Below are positions 30,221-41,912 of a stretch of 54,445 nucleotides of DNA, in pieces. Under the pieces are notes generated by a model. It saw only the letters and a program-made list of their open reading frames with translations, ran no database searches and was not told the DNA's origin. Source of the stretch: Desulforamulus aquiferis (lineage in GTDB: Bacteria; Bacillota; Desulfotomaculia; Desulfotomaculales; Desulfotomaculaceae); the NCBI GenBank assembly GCA_004143605.1, contig AWVY01000052.1, positions 4,060 through 58,504 on the forward strand, in the 5' to 3' direction. The translations under genes were made by a program, and so were the position numbers. The number at the start of each line of letters is the position of its first letter. Positions within the stretch are counted from its first letter, which is position 1.

Positions 30221-31745
30221 CTATAGCATAATAATTTCTTCTTTAAGTCCACTATATTTGGCAAGCCAATTTCTTCTTTCTTCACGAAGTCTTTGTACCA
30301 ATTCATTATAGCTTTGCGGTTCATAATAACCCTTGGGTAAGTATTCCTTTATATTGAGTCCTGGGATTTCAACAGGTATATCATAGCCCCAATCTGAGTC
30401 TTTCTCCCATTTGATTGTTCCCTTGGCAATATGCTTCATTATTTCGGTGGAAATCTTAATAGTAACTTTTTTACCAGCTTGCTCTGGTTTGGCTCCAACT
30501 GCTCCGGTGTTAAGAATATAGCATTCCATATCAGGATTGGCCTTCAGTATAACCAGTAATCTATTCCCTTCTTCTGCTTCTGGTCCCATAATAAATGGAT
30601 TGGTCCCAACTTCCCTTTTGGACTGTCCGGCCTTTGTAGGATCACCGGCAGAAGTTTCTATTGACTCTCCCAGCATAAAATAGGCTGCAGCCTGTTCAGG
30701 AGTTAGTTTGGCAACAGGGGGAATAATATCATTTCTTCTGGTAATAAAGATAATCTTATTTGCCTTTTCTAAATCTATCTTATCGTCCGTGCCAATAACC
30801 TCGCTTCGCAAAATAACCCCTCTACCATTGGAGGTTAATTCAACGTTATCAAAATCAATGGTTCCATCGTCCATGACTTTAACGTTTTCAAAAATTGCCT
30901 GTGGAGATATTGCAGCATTATATAACACATGTTGGGATTCATCTAAGCCTTCAGTCTTGATATAAAAACCATTTTCCGTGCCGAAGCAATAACCCTTAAT
31001 GTTCATCAATACTACATCATCTTGCCTAATCATGACTTTTTCTGGTTCAATAAGTTCATGATCGTGCATGGTTAGAGTAGTTTTGCCTGTACCAGACAGA
31101 CCGAACATTATAAATCCAACATCAACTAATTCATCCTGGCTGTTGGTTACCCTGAGGACTTTACTGCCGGCATGGAAGCCTAAACCGCCTCTTTGTTTAA
31201 TATCAAACATTGCTTTGCGCAAAAGGATTTTTTACACTCACCAAAATAGTCCGGACCTAGGATATAGGATATTTTTTCCACTGGGTGACAGAAAATAATT
31301 TTTTCCGGCCATTCAGGCACATAGATACTAACTAAATCAGGTTCAGCGTTTTTATCCTCTGGCTCAAAGGTCATACTGGTCCACTGCAATGGAATGCTGG
31401 CAAAATCCTTTGTGATATATAATCTGCAATGGTACTTAAAGCTTGTATGGGTGCATAACTGGCGGTCCATTTGGATAACTTCTTTATCTTGTAAAAATTG
31501 GTGTACCTGCTCTGCCAATGCCAGGGCCTTTTCAGGAGCCATGCCCTGCTGGTCAACACCTAGATTAAACCCATCTGCATCAACCACAAAGGTAACCTTT
31601 GCGCTTCTATTACGCATTTGAGAGATAAAACTAGCACTACCAAATTTAGTGGTTTTTTCTTTGTGCGCAGCCATTCTCCTTAGTTCTTCTGGTGAAGGAT
31701 TATTGATAATATTGGCAGCCTCCACAAACGTTTTAAATTCGCCAT
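30221..31745 (-). CDS. pckA: ATP-dependent phosphoenolpyruvate carboxykinase, two frame breaks
   Basis: Converts oxaloacetate plus ATP to phosphoenolpyruvate and CO2, or the reverse. About 507 residues. Walker A-like loop GLSGTGKTTL, kinase-2 motif RQDDVVLMN, and TRRNDIIPPVAKLTPEQAAAYF (given as TRRNDIIPP). One break near 31215 separates FGECKKSF from LRKAMFDIKQRGG. A second lies in the start region, where AAAGGGGAT precedes ATGGCGAATTTAAAACG; adding one A gives MANLKTFVEAANIINNP. I therefore set the start at 31745. A perfect 30-bp palindrome lies 37 bases upstream. Confidence 0.93.
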
Positions 31746-31781
31746 TTTTGGTATCCCCTTTCTTAATAACCCTGACTACAA

Positions 31782-31811
31782 TTAGTGTATATTGTATACA
31801 ATATACACTAA
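31782..31811. promoter_or_regulatory. Perfect 30-bp palindrome, probable operator upstream of pckA
   Basis: Each arm is TTAGTGTATATTGTA with no loop; the centre reads ATTGTATACAAT. Such TTGTATACAA cores are typical of GntR-family operators. It lies 37-66 bases before the proposed pckA start and 57 bases before the probable end of fumB on the other side. With no T-run next to it and an AT-rich centre, it is a better protein-binding site than a terminator. Confidence 0.7.
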
Positions 31812-31875
31812 GGCGTCAACGTGAACCAGTCAGTTAACAAGAAATGCTCATATTAACGCCTGTATTTTATTGGTT

Positions 31876-32429
31876 TTATTCTATGGCATATAGTTTTCTA
31901 CCAGCCTGATATAAATCTCCGCCGAATGCATCATTAACAACAATGGCTGGGAAGTCCTTAATAACCAATCTATAAATAGCCTCTGGACCCAATTCCGGAT
32001 AGGCCACAACTTCAGCTTCAACAATACATTTGGAGATTAGGGCCGCAGCTCCACCGATGGCAGCAAAATACACTGCACCGTATTCTTTCATGGCCTTAAT
32101 TACCGACTCACTGCGTGCTCCCTTGCCAATCATTCCCTTTAAACCCTTTTCTATGAGCCTAGGTGCATAGGCATCCATACGCCCTGAGGTAGTAGGACCA
32201 GCAGAGCCAATAACTCTCCCTGGAGGTGCTGGAGAAGGTCCAACATAGTAAATTATCTGTCCGTCAAGGTCCACCGGTAGATCTTCTCCCTGTCTAATAG
32301 ATCAACGAGCTTCTTGTGGGCTGCGTCTCTCCCGGTATAAATAACTCCGTTTATTAATACCTGTTGTCCAATTCGTAAATTATTTACTACCTCCATATTT
32401 AAAGGAGTATTTAAACGCACTCTGGTCAC
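31876..32429 (-). CDS. fumB: Class I fumarate hydratase, beta (C-terminal) subunit, one frame break
   Basis: Second subunit of the two-subunit iron-sulfur fumarase (fumarate + water to malate), about 184 residues. It starts with a GTG after AGGAGGGTAATAAG (TRVRLNTPLNMEVVNNLRIG) and breaks near 32288 where a G is missing (DRGEDLPVDLDG in the repaired frame). The diagnostic segment is YVGPSPAPPGRVIGSAGPTT then SGRMDAYAPRLIEKG. It lies 12 bases after fumA in one operon. Related enzymes are tartrate dehydratases, but the close mdh-frd-fum cluster favours fumarase. The symbol denotes the beta subunit, not E. coli FumB. Confidence 0.88.
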
Positions 32430-32441
32430 CTTATTACCCTC

Positions 32442-33284
32442 CTATATTTCAACGGATTTATGCCTTGCAGCATGGCAGTTTATATTGACTGCCACAGGTA
32501 AACTAGCAATATGAGCACCAAATATTTCTATATGTACACCCAATGCTGTGGTTCTACCGCCTAAACCTGCAGGTCCAATACCCATCCTATTGATTTTATC
32601 CAATAACTCCTGTTCTAGTTTAGCAATATCTTCTAGGGGGTGAGGTTTTCCAATCTGTCTGAGTAAAGCCTCTTTGGCCAGTAATGCGCATCTTTCCATA
32701 GTACCGCCAATCCCAACACCTATTACCAGGGGCGGGCATGGGTTTGGTCCGGCATTTTTGATAGTCTCTAACACAAAGCCTTTTACACCTTCAACACCTT
32801 CAGCGGGCTTGAGCATTTTAAGGGCACTCATATTCTCACTGCCGCCACCCTTTGGCGCAACAGTTATTTTTATTTTCTCACCAGGAACTATATTAGTATG
32901 TATTACAGCCGGGGTATTATCACCGGTATTTACCCTGTCCAGAGGATTGCCAACTATAGATTTACGAAGATATCCTTCTTGATATCCCTTCCTGACACCC
33001 TCATTAATAGCTTCGTTAAAATCACCATTAATCACATGAACATCCTGCCCCATTTCTACAAATACCACGGCAAAACCAGTATCTTGACACATGGGAATGG
33101 ACTCGGATGAGGCTATATGTGCATTTTCCAGCAAAAGATTAAGTATTTCCTTACCACTTTGGGAGACTTCTGTGTTACAGGCCTTTTTAAAGGAGTCCAG
33201 AACATCATCCTCCAATTTATAGTTCGCCTCTTGGCAAATTTTTGCCACTGCCTCAATTATTTGCTGTACATCAATAGTTCTAAT
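32442..33284 (-). CDS. fumA: Class I fumarate hydratase, alpha (N-terminal) subunit; probable ATT start
   Basis: About 280 residues. Iron-sulfur ligand regions are visible: IPMCQDTGFAVVF, GPNPCPPLVIGVGIGG and ERCALLAKEALLR. The frame is open to 33359, but that stretch contains a sigma-54 promoter (33336-33350), so the start must be inside. AAGGAGG at 33293-33299 points eight bases on to an ATT codon at 33284, giving IRTIDVQQIIEAVAKICQEA, which aligns with the usual family start MRxIDV. No ATG, GTG or TTG in frame fits this site. An ATT start, or a sequencing substitution of ATG, is proposed. Confidence 0.9.
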   Translation of the reverse strand: MRTIDVQQIIEAVAKICQEANYKLEDDVLDSFKKACNTEVSQSGKEILNLLLENAHIASSESIPMCQDTGFAVVFVEMGQDVHVINGDFNEAINEGVRKGYQEGYLRKSIVGNPLDRVNTGDNTPAVIHTNIVPGEKIKITVAPKGGGSENMSALKMLKPAEGVEGVKGFVLETIKNAGPNPCPPLVIGVGIGGTMERCALLAKEALLRQIGKPHPLEDIAKLEQELLDKINRMGIGPAGLGGRTTALGVHIEIFGAHIASLPVAVNINCHAARHKSVEI

Positions 33285-33335
33285 GCCGGTAACCTCCTTA
33301 TTCAATCTATCACTTATTTTATTTACTATATTCTT

Positions 33336-33350
33336 GCAATATACGTGCCA
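33336..33350 (-). promoter_or_regulatory. Sigma-54 (-24/-12) promoter of fumAB
   Basis: Minus strand reads TGGCAC-GTATA-TTGC, an exact match to the TGGCAC-N5-TTGC consensus with GG and GC ten bases apart. Transcription should start near 33325, about 40 bases before the proposed fumA start. A sigma-54 activator gene is the next gene upstream. Confidence 0.88.
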
Positions 33351-33436
33351 TAAGCACAAACAGTTACCATTACCTGGTAACCTTCCATTAACAGTTGCTT
33401 AGCAGGGGTGAATGGTCTTATTTTAACCTTAAATGG

Positions 33437-33458
33437 TAACATATTAATTAATGTGTTA
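33437..33458. promoter_or_regulatory. 22-bp imperfect palindrome upstream of the fumA promoter
   Basis: TAACATATTAATTAATGTGTTA: ten of eleven pairs match. It lies between the sigma-54 promoter and the activator sites, about 90 bases upstream of the -24 box. It could bind a second regulator or a bending protein such as IHF/HU; its function is unknown. Confidence 0.4.
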
Positions 33459-33476
33459 TCACATATATTTATCAGT

Positions 33477-33564
33477 TTCTAAATATTAGAAGCCCACACC
33501 CATTAGAACATGGTGGTGAGCTCTTTGATGTTTCTAATATTTAGAATTATTCTAAATATTAGAA
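33477..33564. promoter_or_regulatory. Three putative enhancer sites TTCTAA-N3-TTAGAA
   Basis: Copies at 33477-33491, 33532-33546 and 33550-33564 share the inverted repeat TTCTAA/TTAGAA with a 3-base spacer (ATA or TAT). The last two are 18 bases apart, centre to centre. The last overlaps the final codons of the activator gene (S-N-I-stop). They lie 127-215 bases upstream of the fumA -24 box, the usual range for sigma-54 enhancer sites. Confidence 0.75.
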
Positions 33565-34922
33565 GTTAAAATATTATATTTTTTGACTTTATTATACAAA
33601 GTAGCCAGGGAAATATTTAGAAACTTGGCTGCCTGCCGTTTACCTTCCACGCTGACTCCATATTTTTCAAGGGCCCTTGTAATCATGATTTTTTCAATAT
33701 GATCAAGGGGCATTAATCCTAGTTCAGGCACATCCTGGTTGCCCAAGCCCATAGTTATATGGGGTGCTAATTCTTTGATGGTGATTAATTCTGAGTCCAG
33801 GGAGACCATAATTCTCTCCAGAACGTTTTCCATTTCTCTAATGTTTCCAGGCCAATTATAGCCGGACATTGCCCCAAGGGCCTCTGCAGTTAATCCCACC
33901 ACCTTACGTCCTAGCTTTCTGTTAAGACTAGTGATAATGTGGTTTGCTAATTCTGGTAAGTCCTCAGTTCTCTCCCTTAGGGTAGGCAAATTTATTTCCA
34001 CTACACTAAGGCGGTAATAGAGATCTTCCCTGAACTTCCCCTCCCTAACCAGTTGTTTAAGGTTTCTATTGGTTGCGGCAATTACCCTCACGTCGATACT
34101 AATAGTTCTATTGCTTCCTAAAGGCTCAAATTCACGTTCTTGCAGTACCCTTAGCAGTTTTGCCTGCAATAGTAAATTCATATCCCCTATCTCATCAAGA
34201 AATAGTGTGCCTGAATGGGCCAAGCTAAACTTTCCAATTTTGTCCTTTAAGGCGCCGGTAAAGGCACCCCTGGCATAACCAAAGAGTTCACTTTCCAAAA
34301 GGGTGTCGGGTATTGCTGCACAATTAATGGCAATAAAGGGATTATCTCTCCTGGGACCTCCATTATGAATAGCGTTGGCAAACACTTCTTTACCAGTTCC
34401 ACTCTCACCTAGAATGAGTACCGTACTGCTGCTTCTAGCTGCCATCTGGGCGGTTTTTATACAATCTCCTATGGCAGCACTGCCCCCAACAATGTTTTCA
34501 AAGCCATATTTACTCTGGGTTACCTGACCATATTTATCGGAAAGATCCCTAATCATGTTGGTACTGCGCTTTAAGTCTTCTATAAGCTTAATAATATCCG
34601 TGATATGTTGAAATATAACCACTGCGCCTATGATCTCACCATTGACCACCATAGGTACAGCATTAGAAATTACTTCAGCATTACTACCCCCAACCTTTGT
34701 TCTGTGACCTGTAATGGACTTTCCTGTTTTTAAAGCTAAGGCCAAAGCACCCTCAGGTGATATATTAAAGATATTTTCTTTAGTTCTGGTTTCAAAGGGG
34801 ATACCGGTTATTCGACAGAAGGCAGGATTTACATAAATAATATTCCCATCTTTATCTGTTACTTCTATGGCCTCTTGAACCGAATCCAACACAGCAGCTA
34901 TAATACCAAGAGATAGCACCAA
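33552..34922 (-). CDS. Sigma-54-dependent activator with PAS sensor domain
   Basis: 456 residues, intact. An N-terminal PAS domain (about 8-110: AIEVTDKDGNIIYVNPAFCR) senses a small ligand or redox state. The AAA+ domain has Walker A GESGTGKE (172-179), the sigma-54 contact loop GAFTGA (219-224), Walker B LFLDEIGD (240-247), and the arginine-finger region REDLYYRLSV. The C-terminal Fis-type helix-turn-helix (KRQAAKFLNISLATLYNKVK) binds enhancers. It starts with TTG after GGGGGTGAT. It is immediately upstream of the fumAB promoter, which it very likely activates; C4-dicarboxylates are the obvious signal candidates (inference). Confidence 0.92.
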   Translation of the reverse strand: MVLSLGIIAAVLDSVQEAIEVTDKDGNIIYVNPAFCRITGIPFETRTKENIFNISPEGALALALKTGKSITGHRTKVGGSNAEVISNAVPMVVNGEIIGAVVIFQHITDIIKLIEDLKRSTNMIRDLSDKYGQVTQSKYGFENIVGGSAAIGDCIKTAQMAARSSSTVLILGESGTGKEVFANAIHNGGPRRDNPFIAINCAAIPDTLLESELFGYARGAFTGALKDKIGKFSLAHSGTLFLDEIGDMNLLLQAKLLRVLQEREFEPLGSNRTISIDVRVIAATNRNLKQLVREGKFREDLYYRLSVVEINLPTLRERTEDLPELANHIITSLNRKLGRKVVGLTAEALGAMSGYNWPGNIREMENVLERIMVSLDSELITIKELAPHITMGLGNQDVPELGLMPLDHIEKIMITRALEKYGVSVEGKRQAAKFLNISLATLYNKVKKYNILTSNI

Positions 34923-35003
34923 ATCACCCCCATGATATTATTCGCCCGTCCTGCTTAAAAAACCTTTCAGAATCATATTAATACATTTTGTTCCTGAAAT
35001 ACT

Positions 35004-35395
35004 CTAAGCATGTGTTTTAACTTGTAATGGATTAGGCTTTTTCTTTGCCTTTTTCATCAAAACAAAAAAAGCTGTTGAACCAATCAGCCAGCATATGATA
35101 CCGGCTACGATGGAAGGGGCTAATAAATTCATATTCTTTATGGAAAGCCATGTTGCTAAAACACAGATTAATCCCCCACACATTCCGGCAATGGCCCCAT
35201 AAGCTACCTCCGATGCCTCGGTGCGGCCCTTTTCTGATCCGGCAATGATTACTGCGGAAATCATTACCGCTGGGAAGGCTGCAAATATCCCTGCCAAGCT
35301 CTTCCAGGGAATTATTATTAATAAGATATAGCAAAGGGCTACAGCTGAGCTCCTAAGACAAATCTCACTGACAAATCTATGATGTTTTTGCTCAT
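35004..35395 (-). CDS. Small four-helix membrane protein (DUF3147-like), second copy, one frame break
   Basis: About 130 residues. ATG at 35395 after GGATGGGGGCAATGATC gives MSKNIIDLSVRFVLG, then a break near 35345, then SAVALCYILLIIIPWKSLAG and the signature GIFAAFPAVMISAVI. Two further helices follow (GAIAGMCGGLICVLATWLSI and APSIVAGIICWLIGSTAFF), and a basic tail. It resembles DUF3147-type proteins as I recall them; not verified. It is paralogous to the gene just upstream, sharing GIFAAFPAV. Function unknown. Confidence 0.6.
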
Positions 35396-35950: not shown

Positions 35951-35964
35951 CGAACAAGTGTTTT
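35951..35964. promoter_or_regulatory. SOS box (LexA operator) of lexA
   Basis: CGAACAAGTGTTTT matches the Gram-positive LexA/DinR consensus CGAAC-RNRY-GTTYC at all but the last base. It lies about 70 bases before the lexA ATG and just upstream of a TATAAT-like box (GTTATAATAT), so LexA should repress its own gene. Confidence 0.8.
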
Positions 35965-36032
35965 GCATATTGCCACCAAGATGTTATAATATACCAAAAG
36001 AAAACTCAGCGACCTTGAAAGGTGTGAATAAT

Positions 36033-36668
36033 ATGCTTAATTCCAGAGAGGAATCAATATTAAATATTATCATAGAAAATGTAAAGCAAAAGGGCTATCC
36101 CCCATCAGTAGGGAAATAGGTGAATCAGTAGGCTAGCCTCAAGCTCCACTGTACATACATATTTGAAAAAATTAGAGCAAAAGGGTTATATTCGGAGAGA
36201 TCCTACCAAACCAAGGGCAATTGAAATTATTACGGATCAAGATAAGTCAGTTGATTCTACTTCAACTAGCAAGGGCAAGTTTAATGATGATGAAGAGTTA
36301 ATCACAGTACCTCTTTTAGGACAAATTGCTGCTGGCGTTCCCCTGCTGGCAGTAGAAAATTATGATGAAACCCTTACTCTCCCCAGAAGTTTTACAGGTT
36401 TGGTGATTTTTTCATGTTAACGGTAAAGGGAGATAGTATGATAGAAGCAGGTATTTTTGAAGGGGATTTAGTGTTGGTAAGAAGGCAGGAAACAGTAAAT
36501 AACGGTGAAATTGCTGTGGCTCTTCTTGAAGACGAGGCAACCCTTAAAAGATTCTATAAAGAAAAGAATATGATCCGACTCCAGCCAGAAAATAGTAATT
36601 TATCTCCTATCTATACTAAAAATGTAAAGGTACTTGGTAAAGCAGTTGGTTTGATTAGAAAAATATAA
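36033..36668 (+). CDS. lexA: SOS repressor LexA, three frame breaks
   Basis: About 212 residues when joined. [20 protein letters not shown] starts a winged-helix DNA-binding domain. Two early breaks (near 36112 and 36133) split [11 protein letters not shown] and [20 protein letters not shown]. The hinge has the self-cleavage Ala-Gly in [14 protein letters not shown] third break (near 36405) precedes the catalytic Ser in [15 protein letters not shown] and Lys in [27 protein letters not shown] precedes the ATG. Both catalytic residues remain, so the breaks look like read errors. It represses DNA-repair genes until RecA triggers self-cleavage. Confidence 0.93.
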
Positions 36669-37595: not shown

Positions 37596-38962
37596 CTATT
37601 TCCCCTCTCCAAAGTTAATAATATCTATAGGAAATAAACTAAGTGGATTCTCGACTTCCATGAGATGGTATATATTGAAATTATAAACAGCTCCGCCCTT
37701 AAAATCAGATGGTGAGTAAGGGAAGGCCAAGTTTCCTGCAGTGGCTACTCGTCCAGGATAACCATAATGTAACATGGTAGACCTGGCAAAGGAACATATG
37801 GTATTGGCAATTTCTTGTGTCTCACCAACTGCCTCTATGATAATGCCTAGTTCATGGCTATTAATAACTTTCTCCGGCTCAAGTTGAGCCATTACACCGT
37901 TTTTACCATATATATTGAAGTTCAAATAATATTCATAGTTATACTTGCTAAAGTTATCCTGAACTCTCCCGCGAACTGCTTCAATTATATGCTCCATCTT
38001 AGAAATCATAATTGGGTCCCTGCACCCGGCTATGGAAACAGTTCGGTAGCCAACTTTTTTTGCTCCCTCTAACTTTATGGTGTATTTTTCATTTGCTATA
38101 TACCTGCTCCCCGCCACCTTTACGGACCTCTCAGTTTCCTCGGTGAAGCTTGTTTCCCTCAAGTCCAAAACTCCCCCTGGACCCGGTAATAAATATGGAT
38201 TAGTTTTTTCATACAAGGTGTGGGCAGCTACGGATGTTGGGGTGCACTTTCTTTCCGTAGTTAGTGGCTCTACAATAAAGCAATCACTTCTTAATGTACC
38301 TAACAGACAATCACTGCCACTTCCAGGAGTTGCTGCAATTGCCCCACACTCAAGTATTTTTCCCATATGAATGGCCAAGCCTTTGTCAAAACCTGCATTT
38401 ATGGCAGAGGCACTAAATACCGCCGGATCATAGGCCCTTCCCGCTAGGACAACCTTTGCCCCCTTATTCAATGCCTCGATAACAGGTTCTACACCCATTT
38501 GTCCCACGATACGCTCAGCAACCTGAATCTCATGCAGATTTAGCTCAGGTACTGGGTATAGGGGCGAAATCTTGCAATTATTAAAGGCCTCGATAACCTT
38601 ATCTTTATCTATTTCCGAATTAATAACAGCTATGGGAAAGGCCCAATCCTTTTCCTCCGCCAATTCCTTAATGATCTCCAGATTCCAATCCAAGTGAGCT
38701 TTAGCACCACATCCCCCGGCAGTACCAATAACTACTGGTATTTCTTTTTGCAAACCGGCTGAAATAATCAGCTCTAGGTCTCGCTTTACAGCCATTCGAT
38801 CAGTAAAAGACACTCCTGCCCCAAGATAATAGGGGCCTGGATCTGTAGAGCCTGCATCCACAGCAATTAAATGAGGATTCTTTTCCAGCCCTTTAATAAA
38901 TGATTGTTCCGGGAATCCGTAGCCCAGTATAGCTGTAGGTGATAATACCTGTATTCCTTCAA
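37596..38962 (-). CDS. AtuA/DUF1446 family protein, frame break near the start
   Basis: About 455 residues (Pfam DUF1446, acyclic terpene utilisation family). QVLSPTAILGYGFPEQSFIK opens the family core; GSTDPGPYYLGAGVSF, GTAGGCGAKAHLDW and GRAYDPAVFSASAINAG are family hallmarks. The family start is MKxIRVLSPTAILG; here GGAGGGATTTATC precedes TTGAAGGAATACAG, which gives LKEIQVL if one A is restored, so I place the start at TTG 38962. It lies in the TRAP operon downstream of dctM, with a strong hairpin between. Substrate unknown; related clusters handle carboxylic acids or acyl-CoA. Confidence 0.82.
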
Positions 38963-38984
38963 GATAAATCCCTCCAAAAATGTT

Positions 38985-39011
38985 AGGGTGAGACCAAATT
39001 GGTCTCACCCT
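38985..39011 (-). terminator. Perfect hairpin between dctM and the AtuA gene
   Basis: 12-bp arms AGGGTGAGACCA and TGGTCTCACCCT with a three-base loop, followed on the minus strand by AACATTTTTGGAGGG. It ends 22 bases before the proposed start at 38962. It may act as a partial terminator or RNA stabiliser between transporter and enzyme genes. Confidence 0.8.
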
Positions 39012-39029
39012 ATTATATACATCTGCCAG

Positions 39030-40310
39030 TTATTTCATTAAGACTCTCGGGATATATAATGAAACATCCTCCCAAAGCACAAAGAATATTAGCATGACTA
39101 CCATTATAAGTATGAAGGGTAGTACACCACGCACGACATTTTCCAATCTATCCTTGGCCATAGCACTTACCACGAATAGATTCAAACCAACGGGAGGAGT
39201 AATCATCGCCAACTCCATGTTCACAGTCATCACAACTGCGAATTGAATTAAGTCTATTCCCAAATGGTGAATCATTGGTAACAATATAGGCAGGGTAATG
39301 AGTGTGATTGATACTGCCTCCAAAAATGTTCCCATGACAAAGAACATTATATTTGTGGCTAGGAAAAATAGGTATTTGTTTAGATGGTTCTCAGATATCC
39401 AGTTTCCAACTGCCATAGGAATCTGATTAGTTGTAAGAAAGAAGGAAAAAATCATGGCTGCTGCAATAATCATAAATATCATGGAGGATATATTAATGGA
39501 TTCCTTTAGTACCCCCCTGATATCCTTTAAGTGCAGTTCTTTATAAATGAAAACCGATACTGCTATGGTATAAAAAACTGACAATACAGCCGCTTCCGTC
39601 GGCGTTACTATGCCGGTATAAATGCTCCCCAGAATGAAGATTGGCAAAAAGCCTCCTGGCAAAGCTTTTATAGTTGATTTCCAACGTTCAGGCCAAGAAC
39701 TCTTTTCTCCGCGACCAAAGCCACCTCTAATAGAATATATGACTGCTGAGCTAATTAGTGCAAGGGTTAATATAGCCCCTGGAAGTAGTCCACCCATAAA
39801 TAATTTTCCGATGGATTCCTCAGCTACCACGCCAAATATAACCATGGTGACACTGGGTGGAATTAGAATGCCCAGGGTTCCACCTACAGCCACAAGTCCC
39901 ATGGCATAACGCTTAGGATACCCATTATCAACCATAGCAGGTAGCATAATTGCCCCAATGGCTGCAGCAGTGGCAGGGCTGGAACCGGATATGGCTGCAA
40001 AAACAGCACAGGCCAGGATTGTAACAACTGCTAATCCACCTGGAAGATGGCCTAACCAAGCCCTTAAAAAGTTAACAAGATACTTTGCAATACCACCCCT
40101 GGACATTAATACACCCGCAAACACAAAGGCGGGTATTGCCATCAAGGTAGGAGACAGTAGGGATGCAAACATCCTCTGGATAATCATGTATAGGCTGAAA
40201 TCTGATGTAGCAGCTAATATAATGATGGCTGAAACAGCCAAAGAAATGGCAATAGGTACATTTAAGAGGAATAGTATAACAAATAGCAAAAACAATAGTG
40301 CAGTTGTCAT
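39030..40310 (-). CDS. dctM: TRAP transporter large permease subunit
   Basis: 426 residues, intact, about eleven to twelve membrane helices. It shows the TRAP DctM family core (AFVFAGVLMSRGGIAKYLVN, AAISGSSPATAAAIGAIMLP, LGILIPPSVTMVIFGVVAEE) and the C-terminal repeat (NMELAMITPPVGLNLFVVSA). It forms the channel that takes up a carboxylate using the sodium or proton gradient, fed by DctP. It starts with ATG after GAGGAGCATTAA, directly adjacent to dctQ's stop codon. The operon order is dctP-dctQ-dctM-atuA-DUF4387. Confidence 0.93.
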   Translation of the reverse strand: MTTALLFLLFVILFLLNVPIAISLAVSAIIILAATSDFSLYMIIQRMFASLLSPTLMAIPAFVFAGVLMSRGGIAKYLVNFLRAWLGHLPGGLAVVTILACAVFAAISGSSPATAAAIGAIMLPAMVDNGYPKRYAMGLVAVGGTLGILIPPSVTMVIFGVVAEESIGKLFMGGLLPGAILTLALISSAVIYSIRGGFGRGEKSSWPERWKSTIKALPGGFLPIFILGSIYTGIVTPTEAAVLSVFYTIAVSVFIYKELHLKDIRGVLKESINISSMIFMIIAAAMIFSFFLTTNQIPMAVGNWISENHLNKYLFFLATNIMFFVMGTFLEAVSITLITLPILLPMIHHLGIDLIQFAVVMTVNMELAMITPPVGLNLFVVSAMAKDRLENVVRGVLPFILIMVVMLIFFVLWEDVSLYIPRVLMK

Positions 40311-40820
40311 TTAATGCTCCTCCCCCCTATCCCTTTTTAGCCATTCACTGCCGCCCTTAGGAATTAGGTAGTATAACTTCTCAATAAACCTAATACCTAA
40401 CATTACACCACTGGCGGGCATGATTAAATTTACTATCCATAGGGGAAATTGGCTGTCAGTGGATTTTTGACCGTAAGTGATATAGGTTTGAACAAGCTCA
40501 ACTCCGTAATATATAAAGAAAATAGCAAAGGCCAGACCTAAACTATTTGCAAAAATACTGACAAATCTCTTAATATTGATAGGCAAAAAATTATAAAGCA
40601 TGTCAACTTTAATGTGGTGATCATTACGTAAAGCTACTGCAAGTCCAGCCATGGTTCCCCACACCACAAAGTATACAGAAAATTCATCCAATAATGATTG
40701 GGGCATATTAAAAAAGTACCGTAATACTACATTTATAAATACCATAGTTAAACCTAGAAAAAGCATGCCACCTGAGAAGTAATCTTCAAAAGCCGTATAA
40801 TATTTATTAATATTTTTCAA
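40311..40820 (-). CDS. dctQ: TRAP transporter small permease subunit
   Basis: About 169 residues, four membrane helices (GGMLFLGLTMVFINVVLRYF, FSVYFVVWGTMAGLAVALRN, FVSIFANSLGLAFAIFFIYY, LWIVNLIMPASGVMLGIRFI), the layout of DctQ proteins. It has the family pattern GTMAGLAVALRNDHHIKVDM. I chose the TTG at 40820 because GGGGGGGAGTCTA is the ribosome site; a GTG at 40835 falls inside it. It ends directly against dctM. A hairpin lies upstream between dctP and dctQ. Confidence 0.88.
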   Translation of the reverse strand: MKNINKYYTAFEDYFSGGMLFLGLTMVFINVVLRYFFNMPQSLLDEFSVYFVVWGTMAGLAVALRNDHHIKVDMLYNFLPINIKRFVSIFANSLGLAFAIFFIYYGVELVQTYITYGQKSTDSQFPLWIVNLIMPASGVMLGIRFIEKLYYLIPKGGSEWLKRDRGEEH

Positions 40821-40843
40821 TAGACTCCCCCCCACATGATAAA

Positions 40844-40877
40844 AATGGGGACGGAATAAAAACCACCGCCCCCATTA
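40844..40877 (-). terminator. Hairpin between dctP and dctQ
   Basis: Arms AATGGGG(G)GCGG and CCGTCCCCATT around an AT-rich loop, followed by TTTTATCATG on the minus strand. This kind of partial terminator usually lets the binding protein be made in excess over the membrane subunits. Confidence 0.7.
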
Positions 40878-40889
40878 AGAGCTAATTAT

Positions 40890-41912
40890 TTACTTACTAG
40901 CCTTGGCTGCGTCAATGTACTCTTTGCCAATTTTTCCTTCATACTCAGCATATAGGGGTTCTAATACCTTAATAAACTTCTCCCGGTCTGCTTCAGTTAG
41001 CTCATAGAACTCCACCTTGCCGGAGGCTTCAATATTCTCCCTGCTCTTATCATTGAGTTCATTTGCAAGCTTAGTTGCAAACTCAGTAGCCTCCTGCATG
41101 GATTCATTAAAGATATTTTGTTGTTCTGGAGTTAGACTGTTCCAGAACTTGGTGTTAGTAAGTACAACATAGTCTAAACGTCCGTGTCCAGAAACAGTTA
41201 AGTACTTCTGAACCTCTTGATATTTCTGAGTATCTGTGTTATTGAAGGTATTTTCCTGTCCGTCAACTGTTCCATTTTGCAAGGCCTGATAAACTTCAGC
41301 AAAGGCCAGAGTTTGGGAACCAGCACCCAATGCCTTAAATTGTGCGTCCAATAAACCGCCGCTCTGGGTTCTAAACTTCAGTCCTTTAAAATCCTCAGGA
41401 GTCTTAAGTGGTCGTTTATTGTTCGTGAAGTGTTTTGCACCGTTTGGCCACCAGGCAATACCTAGCATACCCTTTGGTTCTAAGCTATGCATAAGCTTCT
41501 GACCCATTGGGCCATTATAGAAGTTCATGGCTGCTTCGTCGCTGGCAAATAAGAAAGGCATATCAACTAATTGGAAAGAAGGTTCAAAGCCTACCAGTTT
41601 GGTTACTGAAGGAGCAATTATTTGTATATTATTGGCCAAAAGAGCCTCTAATTCTTCTTTATCACCCACTAATTGAGAAGAAGGGAACACCTGCACTTCC
41701 ATTTGTCCACCGGATTTTTGTTCTACCAATTCCTTGAATTTTAGAGCAGCTTGACCCTTGGGAGTTGTTTCTGCAACTACGTGGGAAAATTTAATTACCA
41801 CTTTTTCTGCTTTTTTTTCACCGTCGTTGCTACTTCCGCCACCGCAACCCACAAGGGACAGTGCTAAAACTGCAGCAACCAATACACTGATAATGGTTTT
41901 AAACTTTCTCAA
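40890..41912 (-). CDS. dctP: TRAP transporter substrate-binding lipoprotein
   Basis: 340 residues, intact. Lipobox at ALSLVGC-GGGSS, so it is anchored on the outside. The mature part is a DctP fold: VVIKFSHVVAETTPKGQAAL, the carboxylate-binding Arg in LKFRTQSGG, AEVYQALQNGTVDGQENTF and the C-terminal helix. Starts with TTG after GAGGAGGTATTAGA. The conserved Arg implies a carboxylate ligand; neighbours (fumarase, fumarate reductase, malate dehydrogenase) make C4-dicarboxylates likely, but the adjacent atuA gene leaves other acids open. First gene of the operon. Confidence 0.93.
   Translation of the reverse strand: MRKFKTIISVLVAAVLALSLVGCGGGSSNDGEKKAEKVVIKFSHVVAETTPKGQAALKFKELVEQKSGGQMEVQVFPSSQLVGDKEELEALLANNIQIIAPSVTKLVGFEPSFQLVDMPFLFASDEAAMNFYNGPMGQKLMHSLEPKGMLGIAWWPNGAKHFTNNKRPLKTPEDFKGLKFRTQSGGLLDAQFKALGAGSQTLAFAEVYQALQNGTVDGQENTFNNTDTQKYQEVQKYLTVSGHGRLDYVVLTNTKFWNSLTPEQQNIFNESMQEATEFATKLANELNDKSRENIEASGKVEFYELTEADREKFIKVLEPLYAEYEGKIGKEYIDAAKASK

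Follow-up and report, generated by a model that had tools for sequence, protein, structure and literature searches.

A probable sigma-54 fumarase switch with an AUU start codon in Desulforamulus aquiferis and its order

Is the class I fumarase of Desulforamulus aquiferis made under the control of sigma-54 and of the activator encoded next to it, and at which codon does its alpha subunit begin? The first question was raised by an earlier note on the window, i.e., the whole stretch of 54,445 nucleotides analysed here, which placed an exact TGGCAC-N5-TTGC element on the minus strand about 40 bases before fumA. The element is present: TGGCACGTATATTGC (33336-33350, minus strand) matches the consensus of a −24/−12 sigma-54 promoter exactly. 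The distance had to be corrected, as 51 nt separate TGGCACGTATATTGC from the fumA start supported below (ATT, 33284-33282). The start of the listed fumA reading frame, TTG at 33359, lies upstream of the −24 box and was rejected as the start of the gene. The usual spacing between a −24/−12 element and the transcription start would place the latter near 33324. The motif match by itself is unremarkable within the window; since four matches with at most one mismatch were observed and 2.9 were expected, the motif alone cannot carry the case. The longer consensus TGGCACG-N4-TTGCW has three copies in the 3.57-Mb genome of the window, and one of the other two, in L004, ends about 85 nt before an open reading frame.

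The earlier note also described the upstream neighbour of fumA as a complete sigma-54 activator, and this description holds. The gene (33552-34922, minus strand) encodes 456 residues, in which a PAS domain, a sigma-54 AAA+ domain with GAFTGA, an AAA lid and a Fis-type helix-turn-helix (HTH_8) were found. The protein thus has what defines an enhancer-binding protein, namely an AAA+ sigma-54 interaction domain with GAFTGA together with a DNA-binding helix-turn-helix, and GAFTGA is present in all 42 orthologues examined. Twenty-seven orthologues at 58-74% identity were found among 60 genomes, 7 of the 8 other members of the genus included; the best 80 of 588 relatives, at 35-57% identity over the best segment, held no match at the level of an orthologue. 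The best NCBIfam match of the activator is the family of PrdR-type activators (NF041552), with 435 bits over PAS, AAA+ and helix-turn-helix; the first 135 model positions are uncovered, and with a cut-off of 795 bits the assignment as a PrdR equivalog was rejected. PrdR-type activators have another target. The rpoN domain is present in 52 of the 60 genomes. In the genome of the window, PF04552 (rpoN) is matched across in-frame stops, which are probably assembly errors; the frame is open in the 8 other members of the genus.

For comparison, 91 genomes of the order were searched for fumA and 83 loci, one per genome, were used; genomes without a match (G023, G033, G042, G050, G060 and G078) or with partial matches (G012 and G064) were left out. 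Close second copies of fumA (L170-L175) and distant ones (31-45% identity) also stand outside the 83. A locus was termed linked if an activator at more than 52% identity lies directly upstream of fumA on the same strand, as in 46 of the 83. The element was sought within 250 nt before fumA in a relaxed form, [TCG]GG[CT]A[CT]N5[TC]TGC, and in a strict form, TGG[CT]A[CT]N5TTGC; the upstream sequence is short in L154 (1130 nt) and L182 (231 nt).

Of the 46 linked loci, 45 have the relaxed element before fumA, versus 2 of the 37 unlinked loci, and the strict form is found in 42 of the 46; when the linked sequences were shuffled, each locus gave about 0.005 relaxed and 0.001 strict matches. Its position is likewise constrained, the element starting between −81 and −52 in 44 of the 45 linked loci and at −132 in the remaining one (G063). 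The sole linked exception, G062, has kept the activator and has a degraded −12 box. The two unlinked loci with an element, G007 and G021, have no activator next door; in G007, which we take to be D. reducens, the 1900 nt upstream hold no match to the activator, and fumA adjoins a lexA-like gene. Outside the order, the 24 best-scoring loci from 146 genomes of the phylum with a match, which are not a random draw, carry the element in 7 of 7 cases with a complete activator and in 0 of 17 others. Judged by this comparison, conservation in 45 of 46 orthologous promoters raises the element above chance.

A further feature of the locus, unmentioned in the earlier note, is a set of three perfect TTCTAA-N3-TTAGAA palindromes between the end of the activator gene and the promoter (33477-33564). 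S1 (TTCTAAATATTAGAA, 33550-33564) overlaps the stop codon of the activator; S2 (TTCTAATATTTAGAA, 33532-33546) lies 18 bp from S1, and S3 (TTCTAAATATTAGAA, 33477-33491) 55 bp from S2. In the 46 linked regions, 61 palindromes with at most one mismatch were observed and 0.2 were expected, and for exact palindromes the figures are 22 and 0.0. At this level at least one palindrome is present in 35 of 46 linked loci and in none of the 37 unlinked loci, while 11 linked loci have weaker sites only. In most linked loci the first two palindromes are about 18-20 bp apart, with the third usually about 50-70 bp further on. The palindromes are probable binding sites of the activator. Because the exact palindrome occurs in the window's genome (72% complete) in these three copies only, the activator probably has a single target, the fumAB locus. 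Between the palindromes and the promoter there is also a terminator-like hairpin (33382-33362), of a kind of which one was found and 1.4 were expected by chance. A reading of the region as an RNA element was rejected, as a scan of the window at Rfam gathering thresholds returned 0 matches.

The regulators next to fumA that lack the AAA+ domain provide another line of evidence. Four were found, two within the order (L148 and L175) and two outside it (L218 and L229). The regulator of L148 (L148:1122-1607, 161 aa) consists of PAS and helix-turn-helix; that of L175 (L175:1926-2573, 215 aa), which was found on a 3.8-kb contig in an incomplete genome and stands outside the 83, joins a PAS domain 76% identical to that of the window to a helix-turn-helix. 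Those of L218 (L218:497-1441, 314 aa) and L229 (L229:521-1450, 309 aa) have an additional Rossmann-type N-terminal part, which in L229 reaches 26.8 bits for DapB_N, above the cut-off, and in L218 has no Rossmann match in Pfam and was assigned by eye alone. None of the four loci has a −24/−12 element before fumA or, within 330 nt, a palindrome with up to two mismatches; L148 has two weak palindrome matches further off, 592 and 2102 nt upstream. Since the junctions of the domain loss differ between L148 and L175, their deletions of the ATPase domain appear to be separate. There is a counter-case, L036 (G026), where a complete regulator, 43% identical, stops 41 nt short of fumA, whose upstream region is free of the element.

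These observations bear on the proposal that TGGCACGTATATTGC is a chance word and that an ordinary sigma-A promoter drives fumA: a one-mismatch pattern whose count in the window is close to the chance expectation and a weak sigma-A-like match on the fumA strand between activator and fumA (TTAATA-16-TAAAAT, 9/12, 33447-33420) speak for it, but with the element in nearly all linked and hardly any unlinked loci, its absence beside regulators without the AAA+ domain, and sigma-A-like matches near chance level in 33200-35100 (8 on both strands versus 5.7 expected), it is hardly credible, and a chance match for TGGCACGTATATTGC was rejected on the ground of conservation. Because the element is conserved, candidate activator sites were found and the element is missing where the ATPase domain is missing, control of fumA by sigma-54 through the adjacent activator is, as far as sequence comparison can tell, strongly supported.

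The start codon of fumA is, in our opinion, more surprising than the sigma-54 part, and it too was absent from the earlier note. The gene (32442-33284, minus strand) encodes the alpha subunit of a class I fumarase, 280 aa, when begun at ATT; a Shine-Dalgarno sequence, AAGGAGG (33293-33299, minus strand), lies 8 nt before this codon. Both families of the two-subunit class I fumarase, PF05681 and PF05683, were found, and the alpha subunit matches NCBIfam NF004885 with 437 bits (cut-off 276), the match beginning at position 2 of the 279-position model and at residue 2 of the protein. Across the 83 loci the starts are ATT in 37, ATA in 12, ATC in 7, TTG in 18, GTG in 4 and ATG in 5, so that AUU, AUA or AUC begins fumA in 56, TTG or GTG in 22 and AUG in 5. 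These counts include corrected automatic calls (L147, L150, L152, L153, L161, L166 and L203), and the start is ambiguous in L150 and L197. The close second copies L170-L175 start with ATG, GTG, TTG, GTG, TTG and ATC, respectively. In the 24 outgroup loci, read by eye, 16 starts are ATG, 6 are GTG (2 possibly TTG), 1 is ATT and 1 is ATA. Within the order, ATT, ATA or ATC is found in 37 of 46 linked and in 19 of 37 unlinked loci; because the unlinked loci share the trait to this extent, the non-AUG start is independent of the sigma-54 switch.

The gene for the beta subunit served as a control. A canonical start lies at or near the aligned start of fumB in all 42 visible cases (40 called by script; L022 and L188 by eye), and fumA at the same 42 loci has ATT, ATA or ATC in 30. 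A rival proposal is that fumA begins at a canonical codon, an upstream TTG or GTG or a downstream GTG, and that AUU is an ordinary isoleucine codon. In the window there is indeed an in-frame TTG 7 codons upstream, lacking a Shine-Dalgarno sequence of its own, and a GTG 12 codons downstream, and 21 of the 56 ATT, ATA or ATC loci have some canonical codon upstream in the open frame. The other 35, however, have none, and in 20 of these the next canonical codon is at least 20 codons downstream; in G008, the frame is closed by a stop 3 codons upstream, and the first canonical codon to follow is at 50. Moreover, a Shine-Dalgarno sequence that agrees with AGGAGG at 4 or more of the 6 positions lies 7-10 nt before the codon in 55 of the 56 loci, and the NCBIfam model begins at the AUU residue. 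A canonical start is thus very unlikely, and AUU is the start we retain.

A less extreme proposal about transcription is that the sigma-54 promoter is real and tops up a constitutive sigma-A promoter, with basal fumarase always made and the activator boosting it. Fumarase may serve biosynthesis, the sigma-A-like match at 33447-33420 is compatible with such an arrangement, and Kosaka (2006) reportedly describes the mmc cluster as having multiple promoter sequences. Against it, that match reaches just 9/12 in a region where such matches are near chance level. We consider this arrangement unlikely, though far more credible than a chance word.

The available text of PMC5472188 describes initiation factor IF3 as repressing non-canonical starts and infC, the IF3 gene, as autoregulated, with Streptomyces sigR (start GTC) as a proven case outside infC. 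Both genes are like fumA in combining a non-canonical start codon with a strong Shine-Dalgarno sequence, but the product of fumA is a metabolic enzyme, and a response of fumA to IF3 is proposed by analogy. In the order itself, infC, the textbook example of an AUU start, was sampled at 29 loci, of which 21 were readable, 5 were not tabulated, 2 were cut and 1, in the genome of the window, is frame-broken; all 21 readable loci start with ATT (18) or ATC (3), with a Shine-Dalgarno layout that by eye is like that of fumA. By this comparison, fumA shows the infC pattern of an AUU-like start behind a strong Shine-Dalgarno sequence, and its translation may well be sensitive to IF3. A competing proposal is that AUU, as a fixed weak start, simply keeps the level of the alpha subunit low, with no regulation by IF3. 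Substitution by TTG or GTG in 22 of 83 loci looks as if plain weakness were selected; the interchange of isoleucine codons (ATT, ATA and ATC), the rarity of AUG and the identical layout of infC in the same order point the other way. A fixed weak start is a serious contender, with a chance somewhat short of even, and discrimination by IF3 is the reading we carry forward.

What the activator senses may differ, to judge from its domains, within the family. The activator of the window has PAS as its only sensor and no Rossmann domain; this PAS domain may, as the earlier note envisaged, gate a response to a ligand or to redox state. In 26 of 42 orthologues (L015-L032, L034, L195, L197, L198, L200, L201, L206 and L209) the protein is extended at its N-terminus by about 120 residues, and the extension is absent from 9, i.e., the window, 7 others of its genus and G037; the locus edge cuts the remaining 7, so that 26 of 35 orthologues with a visible N-terminus carry it. 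For an alignment as a Rossmann domain, 24 of the 26 were used, L018 and L019 being left out as close to L017. The aligned extensions are divergent: not one column is invariant, and the GxGxxG motif is missing from a few. Their profile gives weak but consistent matches to NAD(P)-binding Rossmann domains, the best being meso-diaminopimelate dehydrogenase (E 9.9e-6); L176 scores 22.9 bits for DapB_N, below the cut-off of 25.6. Because the extension resembles NAD(P)-binding Rossmann domains, the long form of the activator may read a nicotinamide cofactor, and for orthologues with this domain a redox cofactor is a plausible signal. More tentatively, and with somewhat less than even confidence, we suggest that fumarase is doubly gated in the order, by a dedicated sigma-54 activator, which in its long form combines an NAD(P)-type Rossmann domain with PAS and AAA+, and by an infC-type AUU start, and that on more than one occasion the regulator was rewired through loss of its ATPase domain along with the sigma-54 promoter.

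The earlier note considered a fumarase under sigma-54 control to be seldom reported, which holds in part. One precedent concerns Geobacter, which belongs to a different phylum. In the available text on Geobacter sulfurreducens, microarrays suggest that RpoN positively regulates the fumarase GSU0994 (PMC2725144); unlike the window, that text describes no adjacent activator or site for fumarase. The main text of a Clostridiales sigma-54 regulon paper, as far as available, does not contain the string "fumar".

The other related system is the mmc (methylmalonyl-CoA) cluster of Pelotomaculum thermopropionicum and Desulfotomaculum species. Kosaka (2006) reportedly proposed that in a propionate-oxidising syntroph fumarase acts as the central metabolic switch. 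Three genomes of our sample are presumably known species: G016 Pelotomaculum thermopropionicum, G068 D. gibsoniae and G005 Desulfotomaculum ruminis. G016 and G068 resemble the window in having the activator, the element and, at fumA, ATT or ATC as the start; the window itself differs from the mmc cluster in that pckA and sdhCAB come after fumAB in place of the methylmalonyl-CoA genes, and in that its activator is without the Rossmann domain. According to the available portions of the sources, the fumarase genes of the cluster are named mmcB and mmcC (PMC11206085), the Desulfotomaculum gibsoniae cluster Desgi_1951-1961 contains the fumarase genes Desgi_1952-1953 together with the gene that precedes them (PMC4148979), and the cluster of P. 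thermopropionicum rises more than 4-fold upon syntrophic coculture (PMC6046458) and is reportedly not highly expressed in fumarate culture (PMC10308238, citing Kato 2009); these portions do not mention a sigma-54 promoter, activator sites or an AUU start. The literature searched, which comprised few subscription papers and did not include Kosaka (2006), yielded no sigma-54 promoter or palindromes at a Desulfotomaculum or Pelotomaculum fumarase and no report of a non-canonical fumarase start, AUU or other.

The wider neighbourhood on the minus strand runs from two DUF3147 genes through the activator, fumA, fumB, pckA and sdhCAB to malate dehydrogenase, the sdh and mdh names being read from translations. 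The frame of fumB (beta subunit, GTG start, 31876-32429, minus strand) is broken near 32300, and the piece of it that was compared with NCBIfam, a C-terminal part owing to this frameshift, scores below its cut-off; pckA (ATP-type PEP carboxykinase, 30221-31725, minus strand) lies in two overlapping frames and is possibly downstream on the fumAB transcript. Broken frames thus occur in fumB/pckA (31180-32300) and in rpoN (G000:C2:81892-82362), and they probably are base-level errors in an assembly of a genome 72% complete. A perfect 30-bp palindrome between fumB and pckA (TTAGTGTATATTGTATACAATATACACTAA, 31782-31811), the sole copy in the window at up to three mismatches, has, by its sequence, the look of an operator through which pckA would be controlled by a regulator of its own. 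Divergent from the set of DUF3147 genes, activator and fumA lies a lexA-like gene (about 35960-36500, by eye) with a possible LexA box, and further on (37596-41912) TRAP-type transporter genes, named from their translations, stand beside an AtuA-family protein (PF07287).

Taken together, we hold with good confidence that this is a local sigma-54 fumarase switch, probably with a single target, whose AUU start is probably held down by IF3. The activator, with its PAS domain, GAFTGA-bearing AAA+ domain and Fis-type helix-turn-helix, would bind the three palindromes, which lie about 160, 215 and 233 bp before the predicted transcription start, and open RNA polymerase-sigma-54 sitting at TGGCACGTATATTGC. 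The resulting mRNA would consist of a predicted leader of about 40 nt followed by fumA, which would be translated from AUU behind the strong Shine-Dalgarno sequence; synthesis of the alpha subunit would probably also be limited by IF3 discrimination, as for infC.

The candidate parts of the switch are now concrete: a promoter, three probable activator sites, an activator and an unusual start codon. The regulators without the AAA+ domain amount to a natural experiment on the possible conversion of a sigma-54 activator into an ordinary regulator. A conserved AUU start in an enzyme gene would add to the few non-canonical starts characterised so far, and it suggests that database entries may in many cases give a wrong start for fumA, as start prediction, according to the available text of PMC5472188, relies on the set ATG, GTG and TTG, outside which AUU falls. 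If the proposed reading is true, a metabolic enzyme gene would have an order-wide, largely conserved AUU, AUA or AUC start, and the synthesis of fumarase would be tied to IF3.
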